The notes below the pieces were generated by a model. The model did not search any database. It had not been told where the DNA came from and saw only the letters and a list, made by a program, of their open reading frames with translations. Source: Isoetes taiwanensis (Eukaryota > Streptophyta > Lycopodiopsida > Isoetales > Isoetaceae). From it: DNA of 64,000 nucleotides. The position numbers and the translations under genes were made by a program. The stretch is taken from positions 3,317,821-3,381,820 of the forward strand of contig JAJEKV010000057.1 of NCBI GenBank assembly GCA_021234155.1, read 5' to 3'. The number at the start of each line of letters is the position of its first letter. Within the stretch, counting starts at the first letter, position 1. Of the stretch, positions 3,061 through 39,109 are shown piece after piece.

Positions 3061-3069
3061 CTGTCTGAA

Positions 3070-7372: not shown

Positions 7373-7375
7373 TAG

Positions 7376-7395
7376 CACTACTACAAAAATAGGCA
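7376..7395 (+). repeat. Left terminal inverted repeat of the CACTA element
   Basis: Begins CACTACTACAAAAATAGGC, preceded by tag. It is the inverted counterpart of 39760-39778. Confidence 0.75.
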
Positions 7396-7810
7396 CAAAC
7401 GGCAAAAACAAATGGCACATTTACATGAATTCACCATTTGCGTCATTGTAGTGGGCAAATAAAAAAATGTGACATGTGCCATTTAAGTCACAATTATTTT
7501 GCCCTTTATTGGCATACAAATGGCACATATGTCCTTCAAATTTTGCCCTTCGAACTGGTATAAAAGGCAAATTAATAAGTGCCATATAAGTGCTCTACAA
7601 GTGTTGTATGCTTGTGCCATTTGTGTACTAATAAGTGTCACTGATGTATCTTCTATTTGCCATCAAAGTGTGTTCATAATTTTGACATTTGCCCAAAACA
7701 ATTGGCACATTTAAAAGTGCCATCTAACAGTCACCCACGTGCCCTTTATTTGTGCCATTTGCGTATGTGTAAATGACACTTAAGCAACTAGTTGTTTTGT
7801 CATTCACATG
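7396..7810. repeat. Left subterminal repeat array of the CACTA element
   Basis: At least eight copies of a TGGCACAT/GTGCCATTT-type motif in both orientations within about 400 bp. In known CACTA elements such arrays bind TNPA/TNP1. Confidence 0.75.
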
Positions 7811-8184
7811 CACCCAAAAATTTGTTCAAAACTTAATCCTTTGCCTACATCATCATGTTTTTGTATCATTAACTAAGAATAAATAACAAGTATAAGAACG
7901 CATTGTATAATACCTTTGAGAGGCGAGAGGAGGATATAAACTAAGTTAAATGAATTTGAATGAACAAATTTGCTTTTGACAATTCTAAGACAAGGATACT
8001 TGAAATGCATATATAAACCATCATTATCACTAAAAGCAAAACAAACTTCCCCTACTTTTCTTCTTTAAAATTAAGAATCAAGTTACAATACATAAAAGCG
8101 TGAAATGGGATTGGGCGGAAGCCTTTTCACTAGAGATTAAGAATGGATAATGATAGGATGTGTGGAAATCGATACGGTTACAAG

Positions 8185-8292
8185 TCAATTATCTATACCA
8201 CTTTCATGTTCATCATCAAAAGTAGGCCATCTACGAGATGGGTTTCGAAACAATAGACCAACCTGGAGTATGGGATCATCAAAATAGAACAC
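8185..8292 (-). pseudogene. TNP2 last exon (end of DUF4216, C-terminus)
   Basis: The exon follows a splice acceptor (ttgcag) and reads VFYFDDPILQVGLLF, then an acidic tail DDEHESGIDN and a TGA at 8185-8187. It fits the QVFYVxDP...VV ending of TNP2-type CACTA transposases. Joined to the exon at 8354-8540 it gives HVQK-VFYFDDP in frame. Confidence 0.7.
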
Positions 8293-8353
8293 CTGCAATG
8301 TATAGATGCATTTAGTACACAATTATCAGGAAAGTATTGCTATGTGGCTTTAC

Positions 8354-8540
8354 CTTTTGGACATGTTCTAGAAAGGCAAAAGATTGAGAACTTGAATTAG
8401 CTTTATATGCAGCCTTTGTAGTGTCCATTAGTTGAAAGCCATACTTGTCAAATTTTGTTGATGCTCATTGTCCAACAGTATCAGGCCTATTATACCAATG
8501 ACATTGCAAAAGCACTACATGCGATGAACCAAGACAAACT
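8354..8540 (-). pseudogene. TNP2 exon, middle of DUF4216
   Basis: Translates as VCLGSSHVVLLQCHWYNRPD, one TGA, then KFDKYGFQLMDTTKAAYKAN and FAFLEHVQK, ending at a GT donor. This is the DUF4216 core (VVLFKCxWFD...DxYGFxxVD...PFxLAxxVxQV). Its N-terminal partner, ending TEYFGKI, lies about 10.1 kb away at 18.7 kb, so the domain is split by the segment holding the SPAG6 pseudogene. Confidence 0.75.
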
Positions 8541-8895
8541 TGCAGAACATAACAAGGTGCTGCGCACAGAGGGTTGCCCTCCAGTGCCCTGAAGGTAAAG
8601 TGGCTTAAATTAAATCTTAAAGTCATGTTTTTTATTTAAACCAAAATTTCTACTTCAAATAATATCTATATCCATCCCCAAGCGAGATCAGCCTGAAGAA
8701 ATATCTGGTCCTCATCATGGAACAAGGATTGCAAAAGCATAAAGACAACTCTAATAGAGCAGAAAATAGAAATACATATTATATTAGGATAGAAACAAGA
8801 GTATTCCTTGAAGACCTTTGATCGAATCTTTATCACAAGAAAGCTTCAAAGATCTAAGGTGCAGGTTTTGTAGAGTACAAAACATTGTTACATAC

Positions 8896-9018
8896 CATAC
8901 TAGAAGAATCCTTGCCATTATCGTCCACTCCATCTAGATCAGCCCTCATAACGATGTTTTGAATGGACTCTTTTCGCAAAACGTAGAATAAGTTCTGAGT
9001 TGCCAGCATGTCTGTCTC
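8896..9018 (-). pseudogene. Second TNP2 C-terminal exon copy
   Basis: Between an acceptor-like catgcag and a GTATGT donor the frame reads ETDMLATQNLFYVLRKESIQ and then an acidic run (DLDGVDDNGKD). It resembles the same DUF4216 ending (LAxQxxQVFYV) as 8185-8540, so it may be a second, older TNP2 copy. The match is short. Confidence 0.4.
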
Positions 9019-10160
9019 TGCATGAAAATGATGATATCATTGTATATGTTGTTGGAGAAACAACCGTAGCGATTGCAAGGATCGCCACAATTTCACCTTT
9101 GACCTTTAAATCATTACTCTAGCCCTAGAAGGGACCAAACTCCTATCCCGTTGTTCCATATGTTAACATTGCTTTTAGGACATCCAACGCTTTTTTCAAC
9201 CATTCAAGCTGACCAAAGGAGTTGAAATATCATCAAATTGTCTGTTTGAGATGTTGCTCCATTATTGCTTCCAATTCCAAACACTGATTTTGTATTAGAT
9301 AAAGAGGTGAATATAGTAGTGTGCCATCATCATTCCGAACGATTTGGCTTTAAGTTTGAACAATATATTTTGATCAAATTGTGCTAGAATTTCGGGTGTA
9401 CCACATCAAGGACAATGCAAACATAATATGCGGCAACATTGTTTCTTCAAGTAATGATCATCCAGTAATCTGCATGTTGTAGCTTATACAAGTGCACCAC
9501 CACCAAACACTAGGATAAATTCCCCCGTATTTAAAAAAAAAAACTCGATTGCACTTAAAGGGAACCAAGGGAACCATTCAACTTATTCAAATCTAAATGA
9601 GACGTCTTAGTCTCTTTTGCTTAAGTGGCATACTTCTATGATTGTCATAAGATTAAGATAACAATATAAAAAGGCCCTTAGGTTTTTTTTTTTTTTTTTA
9701 ACCAAGGAAAAATATCATTGAGTAGTACTTTGGTACTAGGTGATTAGCCAACAAAAGAGTCATAATTTGGTGTTTTATCGCTTCTTAAATGGAAAAGGAG
9801 CCATTTTTAGTTGCTTTGAAATGGCAAATGAGTCGTTGAATCCTGTTAACACATAACTGATCGTTCTCTTCTTCAAGAAATACATTAATCATGTTGTGAG
9901 AATGAGAATTGAATTGACCCAAATACAAAGGGGAATGAAATAAATTATGACACGTGAGATACGCCAGAATGATAGGCTGTTTGGGGGAATGATAATGCTC
10001 AGGATGACAGGATGACAGGCCGTCTGGGGGAATGATAATGCTCAGGTGATGTTCGACAGCAGTTGCCTGTTGCAGATCCATGATCAGACATGCCAATCTA
10101 TTGCTAAAAATGCTACTACTGCATATTCACAGGTATGTTCACCAATCAAAAGGTAGATAG
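9019..10160. other. AT-rich CACTA interior, no gene seen
   Basis: No coding match found. A poly-T tract at about 9682-9698 followed by taaccaaggaaaaatatcatt looks like the 3' end of a short minus-strand retroposon, but no coding part is attached. Confidence 0.4.
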
Positions 10161-10162
10161 GT

Positions 10163-10290
10163 AGACAGGTTCTTTTATCGTCCGCGGAGGCCAATCGGCC
10201 TATGGGACCCAACAAAACAAAGAGCCGAAGCCCAACAACAACCAACAAAACAAAGGGCCGAAGCCCAACAACAACAACAATAGTGGGCCG
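10163..10290 (-). mobile_element. 3' end of a LINE C-family copy
   Basis: The minus strand reads gggtcccataggccgattgg and ends cggacgataaaa. LINE C2 has the same terminus at 34648-34690 (gggtcccataggccaattgg ... cgataaaa). Just upstream in the element is a unit of roughly 40 bp, twice repeated, containing GGGCTTCGGCCC, an RNA hairpin with a UUCG loop. Confidence 0.7.
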
Positions 10291-11359
10291 AAACCCTGGT
10301 ACAGACAATGAAGATAATAAGGATCGGGGCTATGCGCTCACTGCCCACGGCGATGCTTTTATTTATTTTTTCAATGCAATTTACATAGAAGGGTTGGCGA
10401 ATGTAAAGAAGAATAAAATTAGTTTTAATGGCGAATATCTTAATCAATTCATTTCTTTTCATCATTATTTAGCGAAATTTTATTGTTGAAGCTTTATAAA
10501 TCAAAATTGTAAGCAAATACATTTATAACTTTGCTCAAAGAAGAAATTGGTTCGAATTCAAGGCACAAAAATAGAAGTCTTTATGGAGGAAGTCTAGCAT
10601 TTCTAGGTCACTACTCCATTCTAAAACCAAATTGATCCCATGAAATACATTACCTACAAATGCAACAAGGGAAACTCTATCAAATCATATAAATCTCAAG
10701 GAATAACTTGCAGACAATCTTGTGATGCTCAAAAGCCAGTATTGGTACAGATCAGAACAAATACTAGATTTTTAGTCGCACCACAGTCGTCGGATTCATC
10801 GATCCTACGATCTAGATTATATGGTGGGGCTTGTGGGCACCTCTCGTTTCGCTTATAGTCATTTATGATTGGAGGCACCTATGATTTTGAAATATGAAAT
10901 ACGATTTCACCTATGGTTTTGAGGGAATATCAAACCTCTATACGGCTTTGCCTAAGATTTTAGAATATGAAATATGGGGACTCGAACCTCTACCAAAATT
11001 ATTCAATATCCTAATAAGACTACTTTAACCAATATATCTAGTGAGCTAATGTGATTATTTTTTTATCTTGAATCTATGTTTTTTTTTTTTTTTAATAACA
11101 ACCCATTCAATTGTTTTAGGGATATATGGTCTATGGTTTCAGGAATTCTTATTCTTACATCGATATCAAATCCCCCTGGACCCCCCTGTTATTTTGCTAC
11201 ATATTTGGGGGCGAATGCGCTGTTGTCCTAGGTTTGATTGCATGGCGAATGTCTTCTTGGAAGAACGACAACATATCAATTCAGGGCGAATATTCTAATA
11301 AAAAATGTGATACGTAACCTACTAAACATTCATAGAAAATTTATGAAATTCCTAAAAAT
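10291..11359. other. AT-rich spacer, no gene seen
   Basis: Includes poly-T at about 11080-11094. No coding similarity recognised. It separates the LINE C-family 3' end from the ORF1 fragment in the same orientation, so it may be an insertion into, or replacement of, the LINE middle. Confidence 0.35.
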
Positions 11360-12840
11360 TCATCTTTTGCGAATATTCGCCACTAAAAGCATCACTGGGT
11401 CGGAGGGCCACTGATCTCGAATAATAGCCTGCCCCCCTCTATACACTGGCCACTGCTGCCTCAAGCGAGCATCCCGAACCCGGCACAATTCCCCCTTCCG
11501 TAGGCACAGCTGCACTGGAGTAAGATCCTCCTGGACGGAGAATGTGGTCCCCTTCAGATGATTGCCGTGCCGCAGGACATGCAGTCGAGAGATGGCATCC
11601 CGAAACAGGACTAAGAGGTGTCGCGGGCGATCAGGCCGTACTGCTCCAATTCGAGAAGCTGAGATGACGCCTTCAACCTGGATATGCATCTCCCTGGTGA
11701 AAAATTGTCGCGGTTTCATCCGCATCGGAACAACCACCGCTTCTCTGAATGCCGACTAGATGCAAGGCCGGGCATGTGGCCTACCCGCCGCTTCGACCGG
11801 TTCGAGGCGAGGTGGGCACCGGATCTGGTGTCGAGGCCCCGACCAACCCATCTGGTGCCGTCGAGGTTTGTGTGGACATGTCCACCCTAACCACACACGC
11901 AGGCTTGGTAGGTGCAGGTGCGGTAGAGCAATGCAAGTGTTCGGATGTCGGACCTGTGCTTAATCCCGTAGGACGGTATCGACCGGGCTGATCCGCGGCC
12001 CTACCGACCGAGCAAAGAACTCAAGAAGCCGCACCCGTGCCACCACTAGTGGCAACCGAAAGCGCAGGCCCGAAAGTGAAAGTAATCGTAGATCGGACCA
12101 TGTGGATGCCGGCCAAAGATTCCCCGGGGCGCATTAATCGGGCCGAGCATCGATCCTAGCCGAGCCGCAGCAGAAGATGCATCGTGAAACGTATAGAATG
12201 TGCATCTAGGTGTGCCAGAGGGGATGCCGGGGCCCAAAGAAAGGAGCCGCTGAAGGTAGGGCTAATGGTGGAATCATAGGGTTCTCGCCGGCGCGCACTT
12301 GGGAGCCGGGATGAGGTTGTTTGATTTGCGGGTCTCCCTAGCCAGGCGCTTTATCCGGTGGGTCATGCTGAGGCTATAAGGGAGGGCACAAGCTGGTGAG
12401 AGCCCAAGCGTAGGCAGCCAAGGCAAGCAACCGAAACATCTAAATCACCGACTCTATGAATAAAAAATCAGGGCAAGCAAGTCGAAGCAAAGGGAAAACC
12501 GAAGCCAAGGGAGGTGGAAAACTGTTCAAAAACACCAGAGGAGCTAAGCATGTAAAAAACAAAATCAAAGCGCATCAGAACACTGGTCGGGTTAGCGGTT
12601 CATGGGCGCAAATCCGAATCCAAAACCCCCAGCCCAATCCGGTCCAAAACCCCCGCCAAGCCAAAGTCCCGCCAATCCAAGTCAAAACCCCCGCCAAACC
12701 GAATCCAAAACCCCGCCAATCCGATCCAAAACCCCTGGTGCCGAGGCTTTGCCGATGCCGGCGAGATGTTTGGGCGAGGTGTCGATGTCGCTGGTAGTCC
12801 GGGCGCAGGCCTAGGCACCATGGCGCCTTCAGGCACCAAA
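11360..12840 (-). mobile_element. LINE C-family ORF1 fragment and GC-rich leader
   Basis: 11360-11737 (minus) encodes ISASRIGAVRPDRPRHLLV, then HLKGTTFSVQEDLTPVQLC. It parallels the ORF1 C-terminal domain of LINE C1 (RASRLGAQRTDRPRIVTF, QLKGTTLYVNQDLTSMQQ) and of the old LINE at 6.2 kb. The domain resembles the L1 ORF1p RRM/CTD, which binds LINE RNA. The GC-rich stretch to 12840 should be the ORF1 N-terminal half and leader on the same strand, but frames are broken and I see no motif there. Endonuclease and reverse transcriptase are absent next to it. Confidence 0.6.
12612..12742. repeat. GC-rich minisatellite
   Basis: Irregular tandem units around CCAATCC(R)A(A/G)TCCAAAACCCCCG, about 18-25 bp each, at least five copies. 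Confidence 0.7.
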
Positions 12841-13285
12841 GATAAGGGTTATTTGAGTAAGGAATAACGACAACTCTTGAGATATTTGAACTGAAAGGCT
12901 AGCAAATGGCCTAGGAAGATGTGCATGAAAATCATAATGTGGAAGGGGGCGTGCGCGCGGGCGTTTTTGTTGGCGTTGGTGAACGCGCAAGTGTTGGAGT
13001 TGGAGTTGGTTGGATTTGGCTTTGTCTTCGCTGCTACCAACTTCTGAAGCAACACCTCTAAATATCCTGGAGAATAATATCAGTGCATTTATTGGCTCAT
13101 GATTATGGTTTGAATTCCAACGGGGTATTAGACTCGTAGATTGGCTTCTACTTTGCAAGTCGAACACCAAAAATGGAGTATTCGACTCGTAGATTCGCAT
13201 GTAAATTATGTAAGGAAGTTGAAAACCGAACAAACTGAACATCTGCGCCACGCAACGTTATCGCAATAAAATTGATTTTCATGTT
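12841..13285. other. Spacer between LINE fragment and SPAG6 pseudogene
   Basis: No gene recognised. A segment containing attagactcgtagattggct is partly repeated about 55 bp further on (attcgactcgtagattcgc). Confidence 0.4.
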
Positions 13286-16200
13286 TTAATAAACTATAAT
13301 TATTATGCACGGCCCCCTTTTTTGGAATCCAACCCCCTTTCGGGAGCCAATATTTCGCTCGAAATAATATTGGACAATTACTGCTGGGTACCCTTTGTTT
13401 AAAACATCAACATATTGTCTTATGTCTCTATCAGGAACAACATTCCATTGCTGCAACCTTTCAAAACCTCCTGAGGTCACAAACTTCGTTCTTAAACCTG
13501 AATCAAGAGGAAGTATCTTTGAAAGTTTGCAGAGCCATATTCTTCAAAATGTCTTATGGTAATTGGACCCTGCATAGTATTCAATAATATGCAATATGAA
13601 TATAAATAGCTATTTGAAGGCTCATTTAGTCATTTACTCGTTCTGACTTACTTGTAGAAGGGAATCAAGTGCAGGTAGGTGGGTCAGGCTGTTTATAATG
13701 GCCTTGACTGCTTTTTTGCACTTTGATTTCAAATTTTCGCTACTTGTACTATCTATTAGATACTTAACAAGCTGCGAAAGAACGCCTGCTACAGCTACTG
13801 CCAAAGAATGACTTGGGCTATGCCTTCCAATTTGCCCAAGAGACCAGGCACTAGCACTCTTTACATGGTCCTCTTGTTCAGTTGCAAGAGACTCAAGCAA
13901 TGGTCATACTCATTGGAGTGAATAATAACCTGGGATAATGATCCACTAAAAGCAGCAATGTAACACAGGGCCATGACAGCTACAAAAAAATTCACCAGAA
14001 TTTCAACAGGCCACTATACAATACATTACTATTCAAGCAGTTAGACTGTTCAAGCAGTTAGACGTGGGGGATAAAAACAAGGTCAGATTACACATTTATT
14101 AACCTTTTGGAAGGTGGAACAAATTGCAAAATCTGTAGCATGGCAAAAATTCGGAGACACTACCTAAGGCCTAAATCACACTACTGGCCAAACTCGAAAA
14201 ATAAAAATAAAGAGCCAACAAAAATCCGCCATGTGGACTTTCGGCAGCCAACCTATATCACACCTAAGGTGCCAAAACTCCAGTCAGCATTTAGGCACCC
14301 TATAATTTTCGGACGGGGGATCTCGCCTGCCAAAACTTCTGGCGGGCAGCCAGATCATCCATGTTTTCCACGTCCTCCTACCTTCCATGATGCAAGCAAA
14401 GAACTGTATTTTCTGATCACCGGAGTATGGAAGATTTGGCTACGAATCATGTTGATACCTTCTGCAATCTGGTAAAGAATCGCGCTCCTTTGTTTCTTAT
14501 CGCTAGAATATGCAAGATTTGGGTATGAAGAGTCACGAGAGATCATTCATGTTTCGTTTTGTGGCTTTCAATGCTTAAGGATATCTGCAAATTACAACAG
14601 GGAGTTTAGAAAAGCAGAGAATCAGTTCGGCTCATCAATCCAGCATCGAGATGTAGCTAATTGCGATGTGTGCAGATCTCAAGTCAAAATTCTCATCAGA
14701 AGAAAATCATACATGATGCCTGCTCCAAACTTCTTCGAAATCCAACTTTTCTGAGCCGTTAATTATACAAGAAATTCCATGGAGCTCATCGAAAACCTGC
14801 ATCGCAGTTGTGATCTGACAGAGATTTGAGCAATTCGTCCATATTCCGGTGATCAGAAAACACAGTTCTGAATCATAGAATCGGCCGATTTGGATTCAAG
14901 ATAGAATGACGTGTCATATATTTTTATTTTGGGCTCTGCCAAAGTGCGATATAGAGTGGCAGGCAGAACTGTCGGTCTGCCCGATGCCCGCCTATTCTTG
15001 CCACGTATTTCTTTAATTTGGCCTGTAGTGTGATTTCACCCTAATTTAACTAATATGCCATAATCTACATGGATATGAAGAAGCGTTTCTCAAAACTTAT
15101 TTCTAACAAAAATCCACATTCTAGGTCTTTATATCCCTCTCCGATGATAACTATACGAAGATAAGGCTTCAAGGTTCCAAATTTTGGGTAGGCATTTTGT
15201 TTTAAAAGTTGCAAATTGGCAAAAAGTAGGAAATTCTGAGTTGGTCTATAATACATGTCAGTTTTTTTTCCTTGGAGTCTATATCCAGACTTTGTAATAA
15301 CAGTCTTCGCAATGAAATAATAATGAAAAGCTTGTAGAGGAGCACCATGTAAACGAGCATCTCATGTGCTTTCTGCAACATTATCAACGAGTATTGTCAC
15401 ACCGCCAGCACTAACAATGAATTGTGCCAATGGGTGTATGCTTTGCAACTTCCCTGATAACAATTGCAGCTTGCTTGCACACCTGACAATCAGCATCCTT
15501 GAGGCATATAAAGATTTTTGGGAACACTCCAGCTGCAACAAGGACCTGCCAATAAACTGGCGTTACATCCAGGTAGCTAATGAAATCATAAGGTCCCGTC
15601 CTGCTTGATTTATCATGCTCTTTGCATAATGTAAGTCCATGGTAAAGCTAAGCTTCTCTAGAGGGATTGCCATTTAACACTACTTGATTAACCATCATCA
15701 TGTCTCAGCTGTTAAATAAGAGTTTGGTTTCTCTCAAAGGTGCAATGGATTAATGTAACTATTAAACATCACATCCAACTGCAAATGAAATAGACGCTCC
15801 CGCTACTGAAATCTTCTTTTAATGATCATGAGAATTTTCACATTTAATGGGCTTAATGCCTTAATAATTTTTTCTCCTACGTGTTTGAAAAATGTAAGGG
15901 TTAATATAGTGACCTCAGCAAGCTCCAACGAGTGCCTTGCTACTTGCCCCAAGCAAAAACAAACCTACAAAATGCAGAACACTGGCTTTTATTCACTATA
16001 ACTATGTAGTAATATTACCATTCTATTTTCCTTATGTTCATTACCTAAGCCTCGTAGAATTAGGAAGAATCTTCAATGATGAAACCCAGGATGTTCCAAA
16101 TGCGAATTGACGACGAAAAAAATGTTTAACAATGTTGGCAGAGGTCAGTAACTTTTGATTAATGAAATGTCGCATGCAGAATATGAAAGAAAATGCAACA

Positions 16201-18093
16201 GTTTGCTATGAAAGAATAAGAATGTTCAGGTACTGTAGTGGCCGAACATTGATAGAATAGAACATAAATGGAGAAACTGGCTATTCATACCTGCCTCTTT
16301 AATTTCACATCCAGGTGGTTGACAAATGATCTAATATAGTAACAGTTCCTGCATCCACAAGCTCCGATGCATGTTTAGATATGTCTGCAAGTGCTCCGAT
16401 TGCTGCATGTTTGACTGAGACTTCTGGTTCCTGTGTGTCAATGTTATGTGATCCAATGCTTTCATATGGTTGGAATGACATTAACAACTCAAAAATAAAA
16501 AATAATATTGGAAAGAGCTTATCTCTTAAGAAGAGCTATTTCAACTTCACAATAAATGGAAAATCATAGAGTTTTATTAACTTATCAAGATTCCCTGCAT
16601 GAGACCTGCACAAAGAAAACAAGCATCCTAGCAGTTGCATGGTGCATAGCATGAAAGATAGGCCAACTAAAATTGTAGAAAAATGCTAATCTATTGGGTA
16701 CTGGTTCCCTGAAGAGTAACATGTATCCTACTAACTGGAATCAGAAGATTTTTGCTTCTTCCTTCTGTTGGCTACCTTATCCACCTCTCAGCATGGAAGC
16801 TGTCTGGATAAAGGCAATTTCCACTTAGAAGGTGTGTGTCATCATAGCATGTAGAGCATATATATGGCTGCACTTAGTCTTCTATTAGCCCATACACATT
16901 AATGCAAGAAATTGTCAAAATAAAGTCATATACAACATACCTGTGCACATAACACAAGCAATGCCACTGCCCCCTGCATCAATAACGTTTTGTGCAAGTT
17001 CTCCATTATGTCTAGCAATATTGCTTATTGCAGTAGCACCAACTTCTTTAAGAGATGGATCAAATTCTTCAAGGCAGAGGACTAAATGCTCTAATGCACC
17101 TGAATCAATGACAAACTGTGCTAATTGAGACGTATGCTTAGAGACTGCGCGAAAGACAGTAGCTCCTGCTCTTCTACAATAATAATTCTGCTCCCTATTT
17201 AAGTAGAAATACTAAAGGAGTCAGAATCACGGAAGGGACAGTATATTACCAGTTAATTTATTTTACTACACTATTTGATATACCTGACCTCAAAGAAATT
17301 AAAAGCTGTTCAAGAAGGTTATGTGAAATTACAGCTTTAGCCAACACTTCACTATAACTTGCAATTCGTCCAAGACCAAGGGCTGAAGTCTGCTGTATTT
17401 CAGGTACACTATCAATCAAAAGAGGCCGCAAAAGTGGTATCATTCCAGCTGTATGAAGAATCTCGACATTCTGTATCAAAACAGTAAACTTAGTGAATCG
17501 TATTCATGAAGCAAAAGATGTTAAATGGCTTTGAGGGGAGCTATGAACAGATGGGATGTAGTAAACTTCACTGGAAAACAAAGGATATGCATTTTCTCTT
17601 GATCAAGCTACCATGTCTATATCAACAAATGTTGTATGTTATCAAATTAATAGGAAGCTGTATTCCCAGGATGTTTGATGGTTTGCCATTAGTGAACAAA
17701 TGAATGGACAAATTGTCCTCGTTCTTTCCACATCCCAGAGCTGGTCTGCCTTGTAATGGAGCAGCCAAAGTGCGAGCCTAAAATATCAATCTGTCTAATC
17801 ACAGAATGATCAGAACTTGATTAGCCTGTTCAAAGTGCTACCCACTTGTGATGGCAAAATCATGAACATGAACTGTGTGAAACATTGTATGTCTCGTTAT
17901 GCATATTATTTACACATAACACCATAATTGTGTCTATGAATATGTTATTCATCCCATCATAGGAGCTAATCTACATTAAATTCTAGGATCTAACCCGGGG
18001 ATTGCTCGACAGCTCTGCAACAACATGGGAAAATGAAGTTCAGGCTTTCTGATATGACTCAAGTATTTGAAGTACTTGGCGAGTTGCTGCCAT
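13286..18093 (-). pseudogene. PF16/SPAG6-like armadillo-repeat axoneme protein, full-length pseudogene
   Basis: SPAG6/PF16 is an armadillo-repeat protein of the axonemal central apparatus, needed for flagellar motility. Eight exons with mostly GT-AG borders cover the whole protein: 18093-17995 (MAATRQVLQILESYQKA), 17470-17289 (LLRPLLIDSVPEIQQTSALG), 17194-16941 (RAVSKHTSQLAQFVIDSGAL), 16430-16291 (EPEVSVKHAAIGALADISKH), 15964-15914 (LGQVARHSLELAE), 15545-15346 (FPKIFICLKDAD, IREVAKHTP), 13979-13652 (ALCYIAAFSGSLSQ, SAWSLGQIGRHSP) and about 13570-13286 (FVTSGGFERLQQW). Lesions: TGA after YQKA in exon 1, one extra G near 16968, and frameshifts in exons 4, 6 and 8 with stops in 7 and 8. The last codons have no resemblance to the family. 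It keeps introns, so it is not a processed copy, and it lies inside the CACTA element. Confidence 0.9.
14173..15036. mobile_element. Foldback (long inverted-arm) DNA element in SPAG6 intron 6
   Basis: The ends are AAATCACACTACTGGCCAAA (14173-14192) and, inverted, AAATCACACTACAGGCCAAA (15017-15036): 19 of 20 match. Further inside, the arms stay complementary: GAACTGTATTTTCTGATCAC at about 14402 pairs with the inverted GAACTGTGTTTTCTGATCAC ending at about 14870. It carries no coding frame. No clear target duplication was found. Confidence 0.75.
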
Positions 18094-18686
18094 CTATCTC
18101 CAGAGTACCCTGTTCTCTCTGCATTAGATTTCTAATCCTTAGCTTAACAGCATAGTTCTTATATGCATGAGGCATAAATCAAAATGCGCAAAACAATCAA
18201 ACCTGCAACCCTCTTGATGGCTATTGACTGCTCGTGAATCTTTCTTTACAGCCAGCAGAACATAGAAATGTGCTTTTCAAGCTGGCCGATGCACGGACAT
18301 AATGGCGAGAACCGAACATAATCATGCCTTGAAAAAGAAAAGGTTTCTACAAATCTGGCTTCGCAATGCACAAGGAGCCGAAATGCGCCAGAAGCTGGAC
18401 GATTCAAAAGCTCTGCCACTTTCGATCTGCCTTGCCAGTTAACCGGTTGGAACATCGGGCGATGCAGAACGCTGGTGACCGCCAGTTTACATAGAACAGT
18501 GGGTTTGAAGCAGTGACTAGCATATCCTGGGTATATTCTAGCATATACCCAGAATATACCACAAACCACGTAAACAAGGGTTTGCTCCCTAGGGGCAACC
18601 CAAAAAGAAATAAAACAATATTAAAAAAACAGTGGGTAGCTTAATTAAGTACACTATAATAACATTGTTATCTACATGTAAATCAA
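18094..18686. other. Spacer upstream of SPAG6 pseudogene
   Basis: No gene recognised. 18532-18562 holds an imperfect hairpin (GGTATATTCT ... AGAATATACC). taggggcaacccaaaaag at about 18589 also occurs, inverted, near 54940. Confidence 0.4.
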
Positions 18687-20124
18687 CAAACCTGTAAAAT
18701 CTACTAAATTTTGCCAAAATATTCTGTGCCAGCTTCAATAGGTCGCTTATCTTTAGCACTACTATGACTCATAGAACGAAATATTGTTGAAACACCGAAA
18801 CCTTGTGTCACTTGCTTTGCGTCTAAATCTTGCACTCTTAAGTGCCAACTGTATGCCCAAATGCTTTTATAACTTATAGCATATCCTTTGACTCCAAAAG
18901 CAAGATCAAGCAACAATGGATTCACTTGCTCCTTTTTCTCAACCATACATTGGAGTTCCATTTTGAGACACTCTGAGAAATTCAAAATATTCTCCGTTGG
19001 GCATGATACCATGTTGTGATTGTTCATATTTTTGTCAATCAAAGTCTACAAAGTTAATTCTTTTATAAATTGAAAAGCATTTCAACATCTGAATAGCAAA
19101 TAGAGTACTTACAATCTCCATGTCTCAATGATAGTCGAATTTGCTAGAATGCAATCGTGTGCTTGTGGTTGCAATGATACATCCAACTTTATCAAAGTTC
19201 TTTTACCCTCCAAAACCTCAGATGTGTTACGTTCCAAGATGCCATCATATTCACCAAAATATTCAAGATTCTTGTCCTCTTTCATTGTAATAAAAATCAT
19301 AGCTTCAGTGATTATGTACCCTTCAGTAATGGATCCCTCTGGACGTGCCATGTTACGAACATATTTCTTAAGGTGTTTTAGGAATCTCTCAATAGGGTAC
19401 ATCCAGGTACAGAGTGAAGGGCCTACAAATAGCTATTTCTTCAACTATTTATATGATGAGATGAGTCATGATCGTGAAAAATGATGGCAGAAAATGCTTC
19501 TCAAGCAAGCGTAACACATTCACTGCTTCCAACTTTAGGGTACTCATCTCACATAAGTGAATTTCTTTTGCAGTAATTTGCCTAAACAAAGCACTTAGTC
19601 TTACTATTGATATTCTTTCTCCTCTTCTCCTTCCTCTAGACATCCACATATAGCCAAAGGAAGGAACTGTTGAAGAAGAATATGATAATTATGCGATTTC
19701 ATGGATTTCAACTTTCCATTTGCGACACATTTTTTGAAGTTAGAGGAGGGCAAAAGTATGCTGGTGGGGTACAAAAAAATGCGATCCCATCACTTAGATC
19801 AGCACCCTGCACCTACTATTCTATCATAGTATTCCATTTGTCATTCATTGGACCTGTTATATATTTCTATTGATTATCTATTCTATCATAGTATATCACT
19901 TGGCGTCACAAGATTTGGAGGTGTTCCAGATTCAATGTTTCCGTCAAATGTTTTCATTTTCTGAAAACTATGATTAACAGGAAGATATCGGCGATGGTCT
20001 GCATAAATAAATTTTCTAAGACTGCTAGATTTACAAACATGAATATCAGGTCCACACAAGAGACATGCTCGATATCCATGGGTTACTCATCCGGCCAGTA
20101 AACCATAAGCAGGAATGCAATTTT
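18687..20124 (-). pseudogene. TNP2 CACTA transposase remnant (TNP2 core, DUF4218, start of DUF4216)
   Basis: TNP2 is the transposase of En/Spm elements. Reading leftward: 20124-19900 gives AFLLMVYWPDE, then YRACLLCGPD and LRKFIYADHRRYLP, FDGNIE, the C-terminal end of the TNP2 (Transposase_21) core. About 19780-19440 gives SMKSHNYHILLQQFLPLAM and LRLLEKHFLPSFFTIMTHLI. 19402-19109 gives MYPIERFLKHLKKYVRNMAR and PEGSITEGYI: DUF4218. 19048-18687 gives LAFGVKGYAI and SSAKDKRPIEAGTEYFGKI: start of DUF4216, continued at 8.5 kb. Several frame changes and stops are present. The catalytic N-terminal part is not found; LINE B abuts it at 20124. Confidence 0.88.
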
Positions 20125-20141
20125 AAGGAGAATGCAATTTT
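20113..20141. repeat. 12-bp direct repeat at LINE B / TNP2 junction
   Basis: gaatgcaatttt occurs at 20113-20124 and 20130-20141, five bases apart, exactly where LINE coding sequence changes to TNP2. Confidence 0.8.
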
Positions 20142-20409
20142 GATTTGAAATTTTATTCCAGTGCAGACCCTCCATAGCAGCCACATAGTTATCCAAAATG
20201 AATCTATTTGGAAGAAAAGCAGATTGAGTTGGGCTAATATTTCTTTGAAGAAAGTTTTTGATCCTGAGAGCAATGATCTTGGCACAAAGTTTATATGTAG
20301 TGTTTGTGAGAGAGATTGGTCTCCAGTCTTGAAACTTTGAAGGGTGATCAACCTTAGGAACCAAAGTGATCAGGCCACTGGAAATAGAAGGATGAAGATG
20401 ATTAGAATT

Positions 20410-21087
20410 TCAGAAGGCAGTAACTAGAGAGATCAAGTCATTTCTGAGAATGTCCCAAAATTTGATATAAAATTCAGCTGGGAAACCATCAGGACCAGGA
20501 GATTTACCAATGCTAAAGGACTTGAGAGTGTCATATTTCTCATTATGAGAAGGAATGGCAGCCAGAGACTCGTCCATGGATTCCAGAGGATCAGGTAAAA
20601 TATTATTGACTAAAGAATAAAAGTCATTTGCATCCGAGATCTCATTGAGAGGAATTGGTTTGTCTTTAAAAAGGTCCATGTATCTGCTCTTGAAGAAATT
20701 TGCAATGTCAGAATGAGAATTATATTTAATATCCTGATCATCAATAGTCTCAGTAATAGAGTTTCTAAGAATTCTACTTTTGGCTACCCTGAAGAAAAAA
20801 CCTGAGGAGCCAGAGTCCATATCATTAGTATATTTGATCTTGCATCTAATTGCAGAGCCTTTAGCCTCAATCTCCTCAATATTTTTAATTTTTCTCTCAA
20901 GAATTTCTTCCCCTGCTTGAAGATTAGAGCTGGAGGGATCATTTTGAAGTAAGGATCTAATTTCCCTCATATACATAAGAAGCTGGTTTTTTTCTTTGCT
21001 GCACTGATCCTTGATAAGCTTAGACCAGTTCTTAATCCATCTTTTGACTTCCTTGATTTTAGAGTAGAAAAGCTTCATAGGAGGCAT
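20410..21087 (-). pseudogene. LINE B ORF2 linker and reverse transcriptase start
   Basis: A 225-codon open stretch in the same frame as the endonuclease. It starts in the linker (KIKEVKRWIKNWSKLI), passes FFRVAKSRILRN and reaches the first reverse transcriptase block FSIGKSPGPDGFPAEFY. A TGA follows, then SNHLHPSISSGLITLVPKV continues the domain to CILLKI. Motifs A, B and C are absent. Confidence 0.8.
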
Positions 21088-21372
21088 AGAGTTGCCAGCA
21101 AACCTATTAGTCAGCTCATCATAAAAAGTTTTGAATTGAGAGCAGAAATTTTCATTCTCAAGAAGAGAAGAATTAAATTTATAAGGAGTGCTCCCTTCTC
21201 TTTGAATCCTGATAGCATGGGAGGTATGAAGGAATTGAGGCTGATGGTCAGAAATAGAGGTTCCTTCATCACTTGTTACATAACTATTGTCCCAAAAGGC
21301 TGTAGATGGATTGGAAACATAAAATCTGTCAAGAGTGCAGTAAACCCTTGCTCTATCTTTTTGCTTATTAGA

Positions 21373-21930
21373 CTAAGTGTAGGTGGCTGTGGAAGAGGGT
21401 ATATGAATCAAATTGTTATCAGAGATAAGCAAATCCCAATTCTGTTTTTCAGTTGAGGACATATTTATTTTATTTCCCAACTTAAAATCCCAAGAAGGGG
21501 TATTATTGAAGTCTCCAGCAACAATCCAGTTGTCTATAGTTTGAGATCCCAACCAACTATTAATTTCACTCCATATAGGTTCCCTATCTTTTGGAGAGGT
21601 AGGAGCATATATATTGATGATTCCAAAGTTAGAGTTCGAAACTGAGCAAATCATAGCCTGCCAAGCTTTAGAGGGGATGTTGTAGAAGGAGGAATGCTTG
21701 ATGTCTTTTTTCCAAACAATGGCTAAACCACCACTAGCTCCAGAAGAGTTAATCCAGATAGAAGATGAAGAAGGGTATATCCACTCTCCCAAATTGCTAC
21801 ATTCAAAAGAGGGAAGTTTAAGTTCTTGAAGAAGGATTATATCAGCATTATACATCCTGATTTGAGCAATGGCCCTTCTTCTTTTCAAAGGACCTTTTAT
21901 GCCTCTAAGGTTCCAGGAAAGAATCTTCAT
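21373..21930 (-). CDS. LINE B ORF2 N-terminus: apurinic-type endonuclease
   Basis: The start MKILSWNLRGIKG is the normal start of plant L1 ORF2. Endonuclease signature residues are visible: Asn in SWNLRG, Glu in LLQELK, Asp and Asn in VAGDFNN. The frame stops at a TAG (21373) after 185 residues; past it the same frame runs on through SDHQPQF, the conserved His motif, into 20410-21087. This enzyme nicks target DNA to prime reverse transcription. The TAG is probably a mutation rather than the real end. Confidence 0.8.
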   Translation of the reverse strand: MKILSWNLRGIKGPLKRRRAIAQIRMYNADIILLQELKLPSFECSNLGEWIYPSSSSIWINSSGASGGLAIVWKKDIKHSSFYNIPSKAWQAMICSVSNSNFGIINIYAPTSPKDREPIWSEINSWLGSQTIDNWIVAGDFNNTPSWDFKLGNKINMSSTEKQNWDLLISDNNLIHIPSSTATYT

Positions 21931-21957
21931 TATAAGAAGAGGAAAGAAAAGGGCAAA

Positions 21958-24363
21958 TTATAATCTAGTCTTTCTTGATTTTCTCTTACTTCTGGTATTT
22001 TGAGCAGGAGTTTTATTTAGACCAGACAAGATCAATCCCAATTTATCTCCATCCTTTTTAGATGATTTTTTCACTGAGTGACTCTTTTCAGACTTAGGAT
22101 CAATACTAAGATTTTCATTTAAATATTCTTCTTTATCCCAGTTCTCTTTATCACTCCCAAAACCATCATTATCACTATAATCAGAACATCCTCCAGGAAA
22201 GAATTGAAACATAGGATTAATATTAATAGGGCTTACATTAATATTTGAAGGAGCAGAAGTAAGAACTTGCCTGGTACTTTCTTTTTCTTGAAGCTCCACA
22301 ATTTGAGTGTCTTCAGGGGTATCAGGAACAAAATCAGGAACAATCAGAGGAGCAGGTGCAGAATCATTCCCCATCTCATTTATTGCAAATCCCTTCAGAA
22401 GTGAAGTTTGTGGGGCCAGATTTTGCAGAGAGGCCATCTGCTCAGCAAACTTATCTGATATCTTGATAGGGCTTATAGGGTAATCCATCACAGGAGAGTC
22501 AAGGTCAATTAGGGAAGGCAACTCTTCAATGTTTGTACCAGCAGCCTGAGTATATATATGAGAAGTGGCTAAGGGATGGGTAGTTGTGGGACAAGTCTGG
22601 GAAACACATTTTTTGCTTTTATTTAATTCAGAGTCTAGATTACCATTAAGGTCAGATAATACCTGGAAAGGATTAGAGCAGTTGACCTTGAAGTTGACTT
22701 GCTGCTGTGCTGACTCTTGAGTCAAATCTGCAGTACTTTGATCATGGATATTGGACAAATGAGTGTCCATTTTAGTCTCATCTGACTTTTTGTCTTGCTG
22801 ATTCAAATTAGCTGACACTGGTATTTTAACATGAGAATTCACCTGAGAGGAATTCAGCTGAAACTTAGATTTGTCCCAAGATTTTGTAGTTAATGACCCA
22901 CTCTTACTTTTATTCTTGATAGGATAATCCATAAGACTGTTGGAACATTGACCTTTTTCTTGATTTTTGGCCTCTTTGGCCTCTTTGATTATTTCACTCA
23001 GAGTGAAATTTAACTTATCAGTTGCCTGAGAAGTTTTTCCAGTCATAATACCTTTGACTAGAAGTTTTGGCTCACCAATTGTTAGGATTCGAGCTTTTGA
23101 AGGGATTGAGAACTCTTCTTCACATATTTTGTCTTTGCCTCTCATTTCATCACGTGCAGCCTTATTTTTCTGGATTCTCTTGTAGCTTCCATTTACTTTT
23201 GTCCATTTGAATCTATCATTTTCTGGCAGCCTTTGAAACTGGGGATCACTGTTTTCATTTATTGCAGTGCTTTTACCAGACTGATCCATTTGATTATCAT
23301 TTAAAGCATGCTGATTGGAATCCTTATCTGGAACCTGAGCCGCTTGATGAAGTCTGTTGACTTGAGAATTCTCTATTAACAGCTTGCATTCCGAGTACCA
23401 GAAATGCCTATGAGTGCATTTCTGACATTGTGAGGGCAGTCCAGACCATCTAAGACTTAATAAAGATTCATGACCAAAAGCATCTGTAAAAGGAATGGAC
23501 AGGGGTATATCCTTGGAGAGATCAAGCTGAACAAAGCTTCTGGGAGGTTTGGCAGGGGAGTATTCAGTGGAAATATAAGTTCCAATAGAGTTGAAAAGGA
23601 GTTTAAAGCAATCTTCATCCCAATAGATTGGATTCAGGCCAAATAAAGATGTGGAAGCAATGCATAAATTATTCATTTGATCAATATCAAGCTTTGGATG
23701 CCATTTAAGGAAGGTCAATTGAGAGGTCTCATAGGTTAAGGGACCAAAGTTCAGAAAGAAATTGGCTGATTTAGAATTCCCACATTCAAGCATAATGTAG
23801 GGAAAATTGAGCCAATATATAGCCTGAATAAGGATACCTTTATGAAGGCTGAGAAGAAAGGCCCACAATTTATCTAATTTCATGCCACATTTTTGAACCT
23901 TAATAATCACAGCAGAGTTTGATAAAGCATGAATTTTTGAATGGACAATCGGAAGATTTAAAGAAATACCATGATAGATGTTCATCTTCCGGTCGTTGAG
24001 ATGAGGAATTGTGGTGCGCTTGAGTCTTTCATCCAAATCTTCATTTGAACGGATCTCCAGGTGGCCTCTAGCAACTCCATAAGGAACAGGGGCTTGAGTG
24101 ATAGGATTTATGGGATGAAGGACACCCATATGATCAGGATCAGCAGAAAGATTGTCCCAATGCAGAACACGATGAGAAATTGGATCCATTGAAGAAGAGT
24201 AAGGAAGCAGATTGTCAAAGTTCCCAAAAAGGATTGTGTCTGAAGGTTGATCCTGAAAGGAGATCAGATTTTGGAGCAGTGAGGATCGATCGGAGGCGGA
24301 AAGGTTCGCGAATGCGTGCAAAATAGCCAAATGTTTAGGGTTTTTAGGTAAATTGGAGACCAT
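21958..24363 (-). CDS. LINE B ORF1 protein, nucleic-acid binding
   Basis: An uninterrupted frame of 801 aa. I prefer the ATG at 24363 (MVSNLPKNPKHLA) over the first ATG of the open frame at 24540, because the upstream 59 residues are hydrophobic and unlike LINE ORF1. The middle (about residues 120-260) resembles the DUF4283 region of plant LINE ORF1 proteins. It is followed by a zinc knuckle CQKCTHRHFWYSEC (Cx2Cx3Hx5C). The rest is rich in Ser, Asn and Lys with a basic end (NTRSKRKSRKTRL). ORF1 proteins coat LINE RNA. ORF2 starts 27 bases downstream. No lesions seen, so the insertion is fairly young. Confidence 0.8.
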   Translation of the reverse strand: MVSNLPKNPKHLAILHAFANLSASDRSSLLQNLISFQDQPSDTILFGNFDNLLPYSSSMDPISHRVLHWDNLSADPDHMGVLHPINPITQAPVPYGVARGHLEIRSNEDLDERLKRTTIPHLNDRKMNIYHGISLNLPIVHSKIHALSNSAVIIKVQKCGMKLDKLWAFLLSLHKGILIQAIYWLNFPYIMLECGNSKSANFFLNFGPLTYETSQLTFLKWHPKLDIDQMNNLCIASTSLFGLNPIYWDEDCFKLLFNSIGTYISTEYSPAKPPRSFVQLDLSKDIPLSIPFTDAFGHESLLSLRWSGLPSQCQKCTHRHFWYSECKLLIENSQVNRLHQAAQVPDKDSNQHALNDNQMDQSGKSTAINENSDPQFQRLPENDRFKWTKVNGSYKRIQKNKAARDEMRGKDKICEEEFSIPSKARILTIGEPKLLVKGIMTGKTSQATDKLNFTLSEIIKEAKEAKNQEKGQCSNSLMDYPIKNKSKSGSLTTKSWDKSKFQLNSSQVNSHVKIPVSANLNQQDKKSDETKMDTHLSNIHDQSTADLTQESAQQQVNFKVNCSNPFQVLSDLNGNLDSELNKSKKCVSQTCPTTTHPLATSHIYTQAAGTNIEELPSLIDLDSPVMDYPISPIKISDKFAEQMASLQNLAPQTSLLKGFAINEMGNDSAPAPLIVPDFVPDTPEDTQIVELQEKESTRQVLTSAPSNINVSPININPMFQFFPGGCSDYSDNDGFGSDKENWDKEEYLNENLSIDPKSEKSHSVKKSSKKDGDKLGLILSGLNKTPAQNTRSKRKSRKTRL

Positions 24364-24545
24364 TGCGAAAAATTCAGGAGGAAACAACAAAAGATCATGC
24401 AAAACTTTTAACAATTGGAAAGGGGGAAAAAAGATAACAGGAAACAGAGTACAGAAACTAAAAGCATGAAGCAAAATTAACCCAAAGAGGTCTGGATGCC
24501 ATACAATGCAATAATCGAATGTCGAAGAGACATGATACAATTCAG

Positions 24546-25189
24546 AGAAATTTCAGGGGGAAATTCCGTCAAATTGAGTAGGATCTTGAGGTGAATAAAC
24601 TTCAACAGAGATCATGTAGTCCAACCATTCACAATGAACTCGAAATTTTCCTGCTGGGCCGAATGCACTTGAACCCAGAAATTCCTCCAGCCACGAATTT
24701 GTGATTTGAACTTCAAATTCAACCGTGCTTGGCACAAACGAGTACTCAGAACTGAACAGATTATCCGGGAAGAACTGATGAATGATTAAGGAATTCCAAA
24801 GATCAGAGGTCGAGCCCTTCAAAAAACCACACGAGATTCTAGATTTCTCCCTTATAATTGTGAAAACTGAGGTTTCCATGAATCAGACGAAAGAAAAGGT
24901 GATACTGCTGCATAGGTATGGGAAAAAGGTAGTCAATTTGAAGAATAGAATGTGAAGAATCCAACCGTAGCTACCCTTCTACAAGGGCAGCAGATTGATC
25001 CACAAAAATTCTTCCTCAAATCTCAGAAATTTCAAATTTTTTCATATTTTGAATCAAGAAAGAGTTTGAAACAGAAAGTATGGGAAAAAGACAAAAAAGG
25101 CAAAAAAATAGGCGCACGTCCATTTTTTCGTTTTCTCCCTCTCCGTCTTAATGGCCAAATTCCAACAACTTTAAATCCGACACTTTCCT
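24546..25189. other. Likely LINE B leader, then unassigned spacer
   Basis: A 108-codon minus frame at 24553-24879 (METSVFTIIREKSRIS...) precedes LINE B ORF1 and is probably leader sequence; I recognise no domain. 24880-25189 shows nothing. Confidence 0.35.
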
Positions 25190-26374
25190 TTTTCTTATGG
25201 CCAATGATGAAAACCTCCATAATGCTAAGCTGCTCCTAGATACTTTCTCCCTGGCCTCTGGAGTTCTTGTAGGTTGGAGAAAGTGCACTGCTTTATGGAC
25301 ACTGGATAGTGTTGTTCCCTCTTGTACTACCTCTGGACGGTGCTTCCTCATGGTCAACCCACAAAGCTTTTGGGCATTCCTGTGGGGGTGCATGTTTCTG
25401 CCTCATGTGCTTGGGATGAGATCATTAAAGGTCTTGAGAAACATCTGTTCTGGTGGAAGGTGGCTAGGTTATCTTTGCCCGGTAGGATCACAGTTGCAAG
25501 ATCCGTCCTCAGCAACACCCATGTCTATATGGCATCTGTCTTACTGGCTCCTCAATGTAAGATGAATGAGATCGTCTGTATTGTCAGGAATTTCATCTGG
25601 GGTGGTACCTCAGAAGGTGCTGTTGTTAAGGTATCCTGGGCTAAGTGCATCAAGCCTAAGGTAGCTGGTGGCCTTGGAATGTTGGACTTCCGTCTGCAAA
25701 GCCAAGTCATGATTTCAAAGTTCATTTGAAGGCTCCTCCTTGGTAAAGATGACTCTTCTTGCTTAAGGTTGGTGCGGCAATCACTTCTGCAGTGTCTCCC
25801 CTTTCACAAGACAACTATCAAGCCTAGTCTCCCATGGGCCTTGTTGTATCCTCTGCATCCATATCCAAATGCTTTCCCATTCCTTAAAGGTCTGCTTGCT
25901 TCCTGGGATGCGGTTAGATCTTTTTTTCCATGTTAATCCCCAAGCTTGTGCTTCATTGTCAATGTCATGCTGGTGGCTTCCCCTGCAAGGTATATATGAT
26001 CAGCAGCCTTTGTGTGCACTTGTACATCCAAAGATCCAACGGCATTGGCGGCTAGCTGGGGTTTTAATGATTGCAGCTTGGTATGATTCTGGTCATCTTT
26101 TGTCATGGGAGGCTTTTCAGACGAGATTTCTGTTATACAGATGGGATCGGCAAATTTGGGCTGGGGTGGCTGATTTTTTGCCATCCACTGTGCAGCAACC
26201 ACAGGTTGATGTGCCAGCCAGAAAAGTTTGTTTCTTCCACATACAGGCTACTTTTAGATTGTGAGCCTCTTCCCCAGCCCAGCACTGGCATCTTCAGGTT
26301 CCTCAACCATAGTGGAAAAGTGTTTGGATGTGGACATGGGATAAATTGCTCCACCCTAAAGTGTCAACGCTGCG
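25190..26374 (+). mobile_element. LINE D fragment: end of reverse transcriptase to zf-RVT region
   Basis: Frames at 25197-25330 (LLLDTFSLASGVLVGWRKC) and 25322-25729 (LPGRITVARSVLSN, NFIWGG, PKVAGGLGMLDFR) are the end of a plant LINE reverse transcriptase. They are followed by HPKIQRHWRLAG and YRWDRQIWAGVADFLP, which match LINE E (HPGTQRRWIAAG, LRRWDIQTWAIIANAIP). Similarity ends near 26374 (WMWTWDKLLHPKVSTL). Both ends are missing and frameshifts are present. Confidence 0.75.
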
Positions 26375-28442
26375 GGGATCCCATAGCTGCTGCTGCATAC
26401 ATGGCAACACTCGGGCATCTTGGATAACAGGAACATGAACCATTCAAAACACAAGATACTATGGTGCAGTGCTAGACAATGACAACGAAAGAAACATCAT
26501 AAGCATCAGGAGCAAAAACACAAAGTCAAAGTACCAAAACAACATAACAAAGCTCCAGGACAATGGGAAGCTCAGCCAGCCTACAAGCAGGCCCTGTTAG
26601 CAGAGAAATGCCCAGCCAACTCACATTCCGAGCCCCGTTGGCGGTGTTGGTGGTGTGAACCTTGTATGCGCATACCCTTCCCAGCCCACGTCTGGCGCTG
26701 GAGGACCTCTTACCCTGGAGTCACAAAGGTGACGTGAAACCTCACCAGGAAGCTACGCCCGTGAGGAAGCCACGCCCGGTGTCACAGAGCATAGATACAA
26801 AGAACACAGATGACATTAGAATGTCAGAACTACCCAGGCCACCGAACCTGGAAGCCCGACCCCAGAGGTTCCAAGTACATAACAAAATATCAGGAACAAC
26901 AGTGGGACAATGCAAAGACCGTAACATGTGTGTTCATTAGAATATTTACAAAAAAAAATGTGCCTAGACTCTGAGCCCTTGTCGAGGTTGCCCATACAAC
27001 CAACCCTGTCGAAGTAGCGAGATCAATGATGAAAACCATAATGACAATTCAGGTGTTGATGTAGCATGCTCAAACCACCCCTATAAGGTCGATGCAGGAC
27101 TCACTTCACCACATTATTTACTTAAGCTCCCTTAAATATGGTTTCATGGTTTTAATATTAAAGTTCCACCTCCTTAGCTAATTAATTAATTGTGCACCCA
27201 AACTAGAGTCTCCAATTTACGTTGTTCCTGCTTAAAAATCCATAGGGTCTCCTGACCGCAACTGCCTGGAACTCCTATCAAGCAGCCCCCAGGCTAGCCC
27301 CAGCTCTAGGAGCCAAAAATCACCCACTTTTAGGAGTTCTCAAATTATTACTCTTTAATTACATTTATTCTTTATTACATGTTTTTCCAAAGCAATACAA
27401 TTTCTTATATATATTTCCGGCCCTTGTATTCTCCCAATCACCTGCAACTTGCCAGGACTTACTTGGTGGGTAGATTCCATCATCTTATACTTCTCATATT
27501 TCCTTTCTTATATCTATGTATCCTAAAAATAACACAATTAGCAAATTCAAATATAGACAATTAACAAACAAAGAAGACCACAAAAGTTACAGCAGAGAAA
27601 CAAAGAGAGGGCTCGGCCTCTTTTGGCTATGATTTTGGGCATCGATTCTCTCTATACCAATGACCCGCAGGGAAATCGCCCTGTTCCAGCCCCAAATCGG
27701 CCTGATCCAAGTGGTTTCCAATCAAAAAACATCCAGCAGCAACAAATAGGTTGGGCTTCTGAAACAGATCTGGCAGCCCCCAATCTTGATCAAATCCTCC
27801 ATAATCAGGTTCATTATTGCTGTTAAAACCTATCTTGACAGACCCATATGAGATTCACATCATTTTATGGCAATTCTAAGTCATTCTGGGCTGTTTTTTG
27901 GCACTAATGTCACCATCCAATAACTATTTCCAGCTCTAATTTCAGCCAAACAACTATTGCTTCTCCAATTTCGGCCCTTGAGCAAGCCAAATTGATGTGT
28001 TCCAGGTCATTTCCAAGAGTCTCAAGAAGATCCAGTTCCACCTTTGACGATTTTGTTGCAGAGTAAAACCTTTGCTGCAGCCCATAGTTTTCCAGTTAGG
28101 ATTAATTCAGGCCTCCTTTAAGCCATATCCTAATACTTCTCATATCCAAAGACACCTCCTGCTTGCTTACTCTGATGGAAAATCTCTCAATCACAACTAA
28201 ATCATATGCAATTTGATTCTTAGCAGCCTATGTAAGCGTCAATTGAATTCTAAAACCCCACCTGATAAGAGAAATTGATGCAGTACTAAGCTCTGGCGTC
28301 TCTAACTGATCTCTCCGGTGCAATCCAGCCTCCTCTGGCTCCTCAGCAACTCAAGATTCCTTCTGGTGCTCCTCTCTTGCCAAATTTCTCACGTACCACA
28401 AAAGCCCTCTTCTAAAATTTTCCTTTTTATAGTTTTGCTTAT
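26375..28442. other. Unassigned CACTA interior / possible LINE C1 leader
   Basis: No coding similarity found on either strand. The part from about 27600 may be the 5' leader of LINE C1. TNP2 catalytic exons were sought here and not found. Confidence 0.3.
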
Positions 28443-33437: not shown

Positions 33438-33469
33438 GTGTTTTCAAAATAATATATTGAACTTTCATA

Positions 33470-34690: not shown

Positions 34691-34730
34691 ATCCTATTCT
34701 GTTCTAATTATTTGCCCTATGCATTTTTAG

Positions 34731-39046: not shown

Positions 39047-39109
39047 TTATTGAATATCCTTGTGATAATGTATGATACTTAAATAATGTAAAATTGGCAA
39101 TTCCTTCCC

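Follow-up and report, generated by a model that had tools for sequence, protein, structure and literature searches.

How does an entire flagellar gene, introns included, come to lie inside a transposon? The question is raised by a stretch of 64,000 nucleotides from Isoetes taiwanensis (referred to as the window; C1064:3317821-3381820 in the 1.658 Gb of genome searched), in which a minus-strand copy of the PF16/SPAG6 gene is located within the borders of a CACTA (En/Spm) element. A preliminary description of the window had regarded the gene as cargo captured by the CACTA. We found that the CACTA was the landing site of PF16 and not its captor: the gene arrived as part of one 10,051-bp unit (8552-18602) with repeat ends of its own, and the history that we prefer, with a probability of roughly 0.77, is that a rolling-circle-type element captured the whole PF16 gene and then landed in the CACTA.

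The PF16 copy consisted of eight exons in order, all on the minus strand, with all seven introns kept: exon 1 at 17995..18093 (stop at codon 18), exon 2 at 17289..17470, exon 3 at 16941..17194 (+1 frameshift at 16974), exon 4 at 16291..16430 (deletions of 12 bases and 1 base), exon 5 at 15914..15964, exon 6 at 15346..15545 (2-base deletion; stop at codon 308), exon 7 at 13652..13979 (1-base deletion; stop at codon 339), and exon 8 at 12932..13569, which is split by a 282-bp insertion into 13569-13363 and 13080-~12932, and contains a stop at codon 429 and indels of -2, +1, and -2. The C-terminal end of exon 8 (~12932) was read by eye from the alignment, and the four stops and the indels were scored against the frame and sequence of an intact gene on contig C1028, which is described below. 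These stops and frameshifts, together with the insertion in exon 8, make the window copy a pseudogene. When a hand-made read-through of its exons was used as the query, the E-values of 2.2e-143 with Chlamydomonas PF16 (covering residues 3-481 of 486) and 4.7e-138 with SPAG6, versus only 2.3e-27 with the paralog FAP194, excluded a chance match; the copy corresponds to a full-length armadillo protein nearer to PF16/SPAG6 than to another axonemal armadillo protein. Since the introns are kept, with GT at all seven donors and AG at all six acceptors checked, this is a genomic copy, and a processed retropseudogene was ruled out by the seven retained introns. The earlier account of a complete, intron-containing pseudogene that is not a retrocopy is therefore borne out, while its extent needs amendment: PF16 does occupy 13286..18093, but position 13286 falls in the 282-bp insert, and coding resumes from 13080 to ~12932.

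The surrounding CACTA (7376..39778, minus strand as defined by its TNP2 gene) contains nested insertions. Its terminal inverted repeat (TIR), CACTACTACAAAAA, is located at 7376, and the alignment reaches the right end at 39778, where the sequence is decayed and the target duplication illegible. A relative at C952:8652131-8662353 had clean ends, CACTACTACAAAAA (at 8652131) and TTTTTATAGTAGTG (ending at 8662353), with TCG at both sides, and matched the window piecewise from 7375 to 39778, most pieces being 88-96% and others 72-78% identical; matches of 64-66%, which were LINE-like (long interspersed nuclear element) and outside the CACTA, were excluded. A CACTA-type TIR, a 3-bp target duplication, and TNP2 domains were thus all found, the duplication and the right TIR being clean only in the C952 relative. 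Transposase_21 (19891..20115, minus strand; 2.2e-07) and DUF4218 (18603..19747, minus strand; 6.6e-14) parts of TNP2 are upstream of the PF16 unit, and a DUF4216-like part (8345..8551, minus strand; extent approximate, by eye) is downstream. The DUF4216 match was weak (0.0035, under the Pfam cut-off), and in C952 this side directly adjoins the DUF4218 side. The position of PF16 inside the CACTA borders and between parts of TNP2, as first described, was accordingly confirmed. When the genome was searched with the TNP2 region as the query, 69 matches were obtained (best 40 of 693 candidates). Long minus-strand open frames at 20160-24552 adjoin the TNP2 region, and resemble an L1-type LINE by eye.

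The manner of entry was revealed by the empty site. In C952, the sequences corresponding to 7375-8556 and 18602-19747 of the window are contiguous. When the window flanks were joined at 8551/18603 and aligned to 11 CACTA loci (L023-L033), they aligned straight across the junction in all 11, and, therefore, the cargo entered as one unit; another CACTA copy with the same cargo, which the preliminary description had suggested seeking, was not found among these relatives. The junction read CATA|AAA in eight of the 11, and exactly CATA|AAAAG in six of these eight. No bases were duplicated at the insertion, and the target in the orientation of the gene was CTTTT^TATG. The unit is therefore an insertion in a transposon, and an ancestral PF16 locus decaying in place, which had been named as a possible refutation, was rejected.

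The inserted unit (8552..18602, minus strand) is bounded by terminal regions of a different kind from those of the CACTA. The 5' terminal region (18282..18602, minus strand) starts with T and then GGGTTGCCC, a putative 5' asymmetric terminal inverted repeat (ATIR), which is near enough to the end for a Helitron2 element (0-2 bp) and lies within a hairpin that appeared in the predicted fold (-5.0); the 3' terminal region (8552..9474, minus strand) contains the corresponding 3'-ATIR, GGGCAACCC, before its end, ...CACCTTGT, and the two ends may be abbreviated as GGGTTGCCC...GGGCAACCCTC. Using 18270-18625 as a query, 2786 first-look candidates were obtained, the best 40 of which were scored: 22 of the 39 non-self copies start at query 20, a single position in the T-run that precedes GGGTTGCC, and 30 of the 39 stop at approximately query 191-214. 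Eight scored copies besides the window itself and that on C1050 (see below) pass query 300, and seven of these stop at 344-345, equivalent to window 18282-18281; two relatives that were fetched confirmed this break, with the terminal region being followed by other sequence. The search with the 3' end (8540-9680) gave 2364 candidates; among the best 40 scored, 22 of 39 non-self copies have best matches that run to query 1130 (window 8551), and those of four more reach 1131; these stops lie one or two bases beyond the end defined by the empty site, where a T can be shared. On the inner side, two relatives start at query 206-207 (window 9475-9474), and one on C1067 was aligned over 9475-8552. Each end of the unit thus belongs to an abundant repeat family (more than 2,000 candidates each, with the best 40 scored). 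T-runs precede the 5' ends of other copies as well. A SINE (short interspersed nuclear element) or LINE reading of the repeat at 18421-18606 was dropped because of the lack of a target duplication. Elsewhere in the window, a 35-bp match to the palindrome of the unit's 5' end (54942-54976) is directly followed by a 3'-like end, TTTTTGGGTTGCCCGTAGGGGGCAACCCTC, and a similar arrangement was seen at C1028:10177376.

Between these ends lies a captured donor segment (9471..18283, minus strand), which contains the whole PF16 gene, its flanks, and later insertions, and is homologous to C1028:10209557-10213912, i.e., 4.36 kb in terms of C1028. Homology to the C1028 gene starts at 18283, exactly where the 5' terminal repeat stops (18282-18281), and ends at 9471, where the relatives of the 3' terminal region begin (9475-9474); both unit ends and both capture junctions are consequently placed within a few bases, with 2-3 bases, read by eye, being common at the capture junctions. 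An intact PF16 gene, the search for which the preliminary description had suggested, was found at C1028:10209747-10213607: it encodes 539 amino acids (539 codons without a stop) in the same eight exons, and has no 5' element end. The dN/dS values of this gene against two paralogs were 0.148 and 0.134, which are rough estimates because dS is saturated (1.5 and 2.4). Its protein was 55.9% identical to Chlamydomonas PF16, compared with 65.6% between PF16 and SPAG6; by these identities, it is a somewhat diverged PF16.

A second, partial copy is present on C1050: exons 1-3 are there with their reading frame open, and the 5' junction is that of the window copy; similarity ends in intron 3, and no CACTA was found in the 90 kb compared. 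Since this copy has that junction but no surrounding CACTA, the unit moved after the capture. In the stretch common to all three, Kimura two-parameter distances were 0.035 between the window and C1050, 0.062 between the window and C1028, and 0.056 between C1050 and C1028, the two copies being nearer to each other than to the C1028 gene, which, or the ancestor of which, was presumably the donor.

The class of the vehicle is a separate issue. In canonical Helitrons, the 3' end is CTRR and the insertion target is AT. The ends of Helitron1 (5'-TC and 3'-CTRR) were not found in the unit, which ends in TGGG... and ...CTTGT at TTTT^T. On the other hand, Helitron2 elements are described as having ATIRs of 8-15 bp, a 5' T, a hairpin at the 5' end of which the 5' repeat forms part, and a 3' repeat ~20-30 bp from the end and upstream of a hairpin, and a Chlamydomonas Helitron2 family inserts between TTTT and T/C without duplication (PMC3627910); Helitron-5_SMo was named a Helitron2 by Bao and Jurka 2013 (PMC3627910). 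HINEs have a plan similar to that of Helitron2, with T-runs at the borders (PMC4067079). In the present unit, insertion of the TTTT|T/C type without target duplication was observed for the one insertion resolved against empty sites. From its ends and target, the unit is likely (about three in four) to be a Helitron2/Helentron-like non-autonomous element.

Several observations weigh against the preferred history, this reading included. Both ends were read together only in the PF16-carrying unit; 19 bases separate the 3'-ATIR from the end, versus 20-30 in the definition of Helitron2; and the 3' hairpin is doubtful, because GTGC-GCA-GCAC was drawn by eye and is absent from the predicted fold, in which the last 45 bases preferably form a stem including the 3'-ATIR, where the same GTGC pairs with an upstream GCAC. 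At a locus on C1027, similarity to the 3' end ceases soon after the ATIR. Moreover, the CACTA junction is blurred in the three most distant relatives (75-77% identical), and donor homology by the 3' junction is just 75-82%, versus 89-94% in the gene. The unsupported 3' hairpin and the assignment to Helitron2 without a RepHel partner, together with the resemblance of the plus-strand end to a hairpin and a short A-run, leave room for a vehicle of another class with the same two ends, such as a retroposed antisense transcript or an unclassified element with hairpin ends or TIRs. We regard this as unlikely, though deserving of consideration: the palindromic 5'-ATIR, the 3'-ATIR, and the boundary T-runs fit Helitron2 and HINE, as does the TTTT^T target without duplication, whereas a duplication would be expected for a retroposed unit.

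The two remaining explanations dispense with such a vehicle altogether. Capture by the CACTA itself (Pack-CACTA), as originally proposed, would agree with the position of PF16 inside the CACTA borders and between parts of TNP2, and is a known process (PMC13317346); however, the cargo is not bounded by the CACTA alone, but has its own ends from another repeat family, the site is empty in all 11 CACTA relatives, and the C1050 copy is not within a CACTA. No other PF16 place was noted by eye at less than 1 Mb from a CACTA copy, which is a partial test (best 40 of 955 candidates versus best 40 of 693). This explanation is consequently highly improbable. An ordinary segmental duplication of PF16, with transposons accumulating at its edges afterwards, is if anything more improbable still: other PF16 paralogs are present, and the gene hence duplicates anyway, but the breakpoints coincide with repeat termini at both sides, insertion into the CACTA is exact, and, in 90-kb stretches of C1050 and C1028, window matches beyond the segment are scattered, 65-90% identical, and were judged to be repeats.

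In the history that we prefer, a non-autonomous rolling-circle-type element would have taken up 4.36 kb of genomic DNA with the whole intron-containing PF16, which remained flanked by the element's 5' end of ~321 bp and 3' end of ~923 bp; rolling-circle transposition would be the mechanism. The simplest course is one capture followed by at least two copies, namely, that in the window and the partial copy of C1050. The former then inserted at TTTT^T into the 3' part of TNP2 in the CACTA and, without selection, gained stops, frameshifts, a miniature inverted-repeat transposable element (MITE), the 282-bp insert, and probably a LINE.

None of these insertions occurs in the C1028 gene. The 282-bp insertion in exon 8 (13081..13362) is flanked by an 8-bp duplication, ATATTATT. 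The MITE in intron 6 (874 bp; 14168..15041), which we take to be of the PIF/Harbinger type, has TAA at both sides; a CACTACTGGCC motif in this intron was rejected as a CACTA end, since it sits within the TAA-flanked MITE. The insertion 3' of the gene (10152..12853, minus strand) is probably a truncated LINE: its tail matches 34651-34690 in inverse orientation, and an open reading frame (ORF) at 11360-11755 resembles the ORF at 29183-29752 by eye. A LINE-like run, also labeled by eye, extends over ~29183-34690 on the plus strand.

PF16 sequences are not confined to these loci. When the region of the C1028 gene was used as the query, 72 matches were obtained (best 40 of 955 candidates), and pieces of the gene body were found in at least 17 further places besides the window, C1050, the C1028 gene, and a paralog at C1028:3903, after matches solely to repeats at query 1-262 and 4801-4986 had been left out; in two of these places (on C1056 and C1026), the main match was only 71-74% identical. 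Some pieces had shared boundaries: query 2571-3752 at five places (one from 2575), query 1701 to 3561-3675 at four, and, at four, pieces ending at 4340 and then running from 4802 to 4971 or 4986. In the three places of the first set that were fetched, the flanks were also homologous (91-92%), and these pieces therefore travel in larger repeats. The PF16 protein search revealed further paralogs (best 80 of 150), among which those on C1062 and at C1028:3903 were read. In their best exons, paralogs at C1062:813201-816100 (L038) and C1078:8782164-8784624 were 61% identical to the C1028:10209747 gene, and that at C1028:3903301-3906500 (L039) was 66-68% identical, with exon 1 unmatched. By these matches, PF16 is multi-copy in the genome. 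A gene of the radial-spoke family gave four stop-free matches on C1101, which supports the retention of flagellar genes in this lineage, as the preliminary description had expected and the intact PF16 gene also indicates; in seed plants, swimming sperm have been kept by cycads and Ginkgo alone (PMC9023351).

The whole-gene unit and the three dispersed sets with shared boundaries raise the speculative idea, which we consider distinctly improbable, that PF16 is a recurrent hot spot of capture here. If so, sperm-tail genes may be picked up preferentially by transposons that are active in the cells producing swimming sperm, and small RNAs from the scattered PF16 copies may act back on the intact genes; the many dispersed pieces make a capture bias testable.

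Among other features of the window, direct repeats at 44068-45693 and 46950-48579, which share 98.2% identity in an alignment of 1632 bases and are separated by ~1.26 kb, probably delimit a young, short retroelement of the long terminal repeat type. An open frame of 306 amino acids at 49569-50489 corresponds to an NBP35/NUBPL-type P-loop ATPase (Pfam ParA, 1.8e-93). Inverted repeats at 51339-51867 (59 nt, 73%, 411 nt apart), a possible MITE, resemble part of the 282-bp exon 8 insert by eye. A search of Rfam at gathering thresholds gave no match.

The anatomy of this case is unusually complete, since a donor-like gene, the empty site, and both junctions are available in one genome, and the cargo is striking; it shows the pick-up and movement of an entire intron-containing gene by an element with non-canonical, rolling-circle-like ends, and warns that location inside the borders of a CACTA does not by itself make a gene its cargo. 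Helitrons with captured genes are reportedly the subject of the primary maize papers. Gene capture by Helitrons and Pack-CACTA is established (PMC4289320, PMC13317346); rolling-circle gene capture is thus already known, and a whole intron-containing flagellar gene nested in this manner is a good new example. Among the papers on PF16/SPAG6 that were listed, no title or abstract opening presented PF16 as transposon cargo, a result that covers just part of the literature.

Compared with known systems, the unit resembles Helitron2 (PMC3627910) in the 5'-ATIR within a 5' hairpin, the subterminal 3'-ATIR, the 5' T, and the TTTT|T target without duplication, and differs from it in carrying a whole host gene and in its unclear 3' hairpin, the likeness being drawn from the ends and target alone. 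It differs from canonical Helitrons in having neither the CTRR-3' end nor insertion at AT. Palindromic subterminal repeats, boundary T-runs, a T-rich target, and a high copy number are shared with the HINE/DINE-1 Helentrons, which, in the portion of PMC4067079 used, were described mainly in mites, flies, and mosquitoes, whereas the unit here bears a captured whole gene. In Pack-CACTA, a host gene likewise lies within CACTA borders, while here the CACTA is merely the landing site (PMC13317346); in the capture and spread of host genomic DNA, the unit is similar to gene-capturing Helitrons (PMC13317346, PMC4289320).

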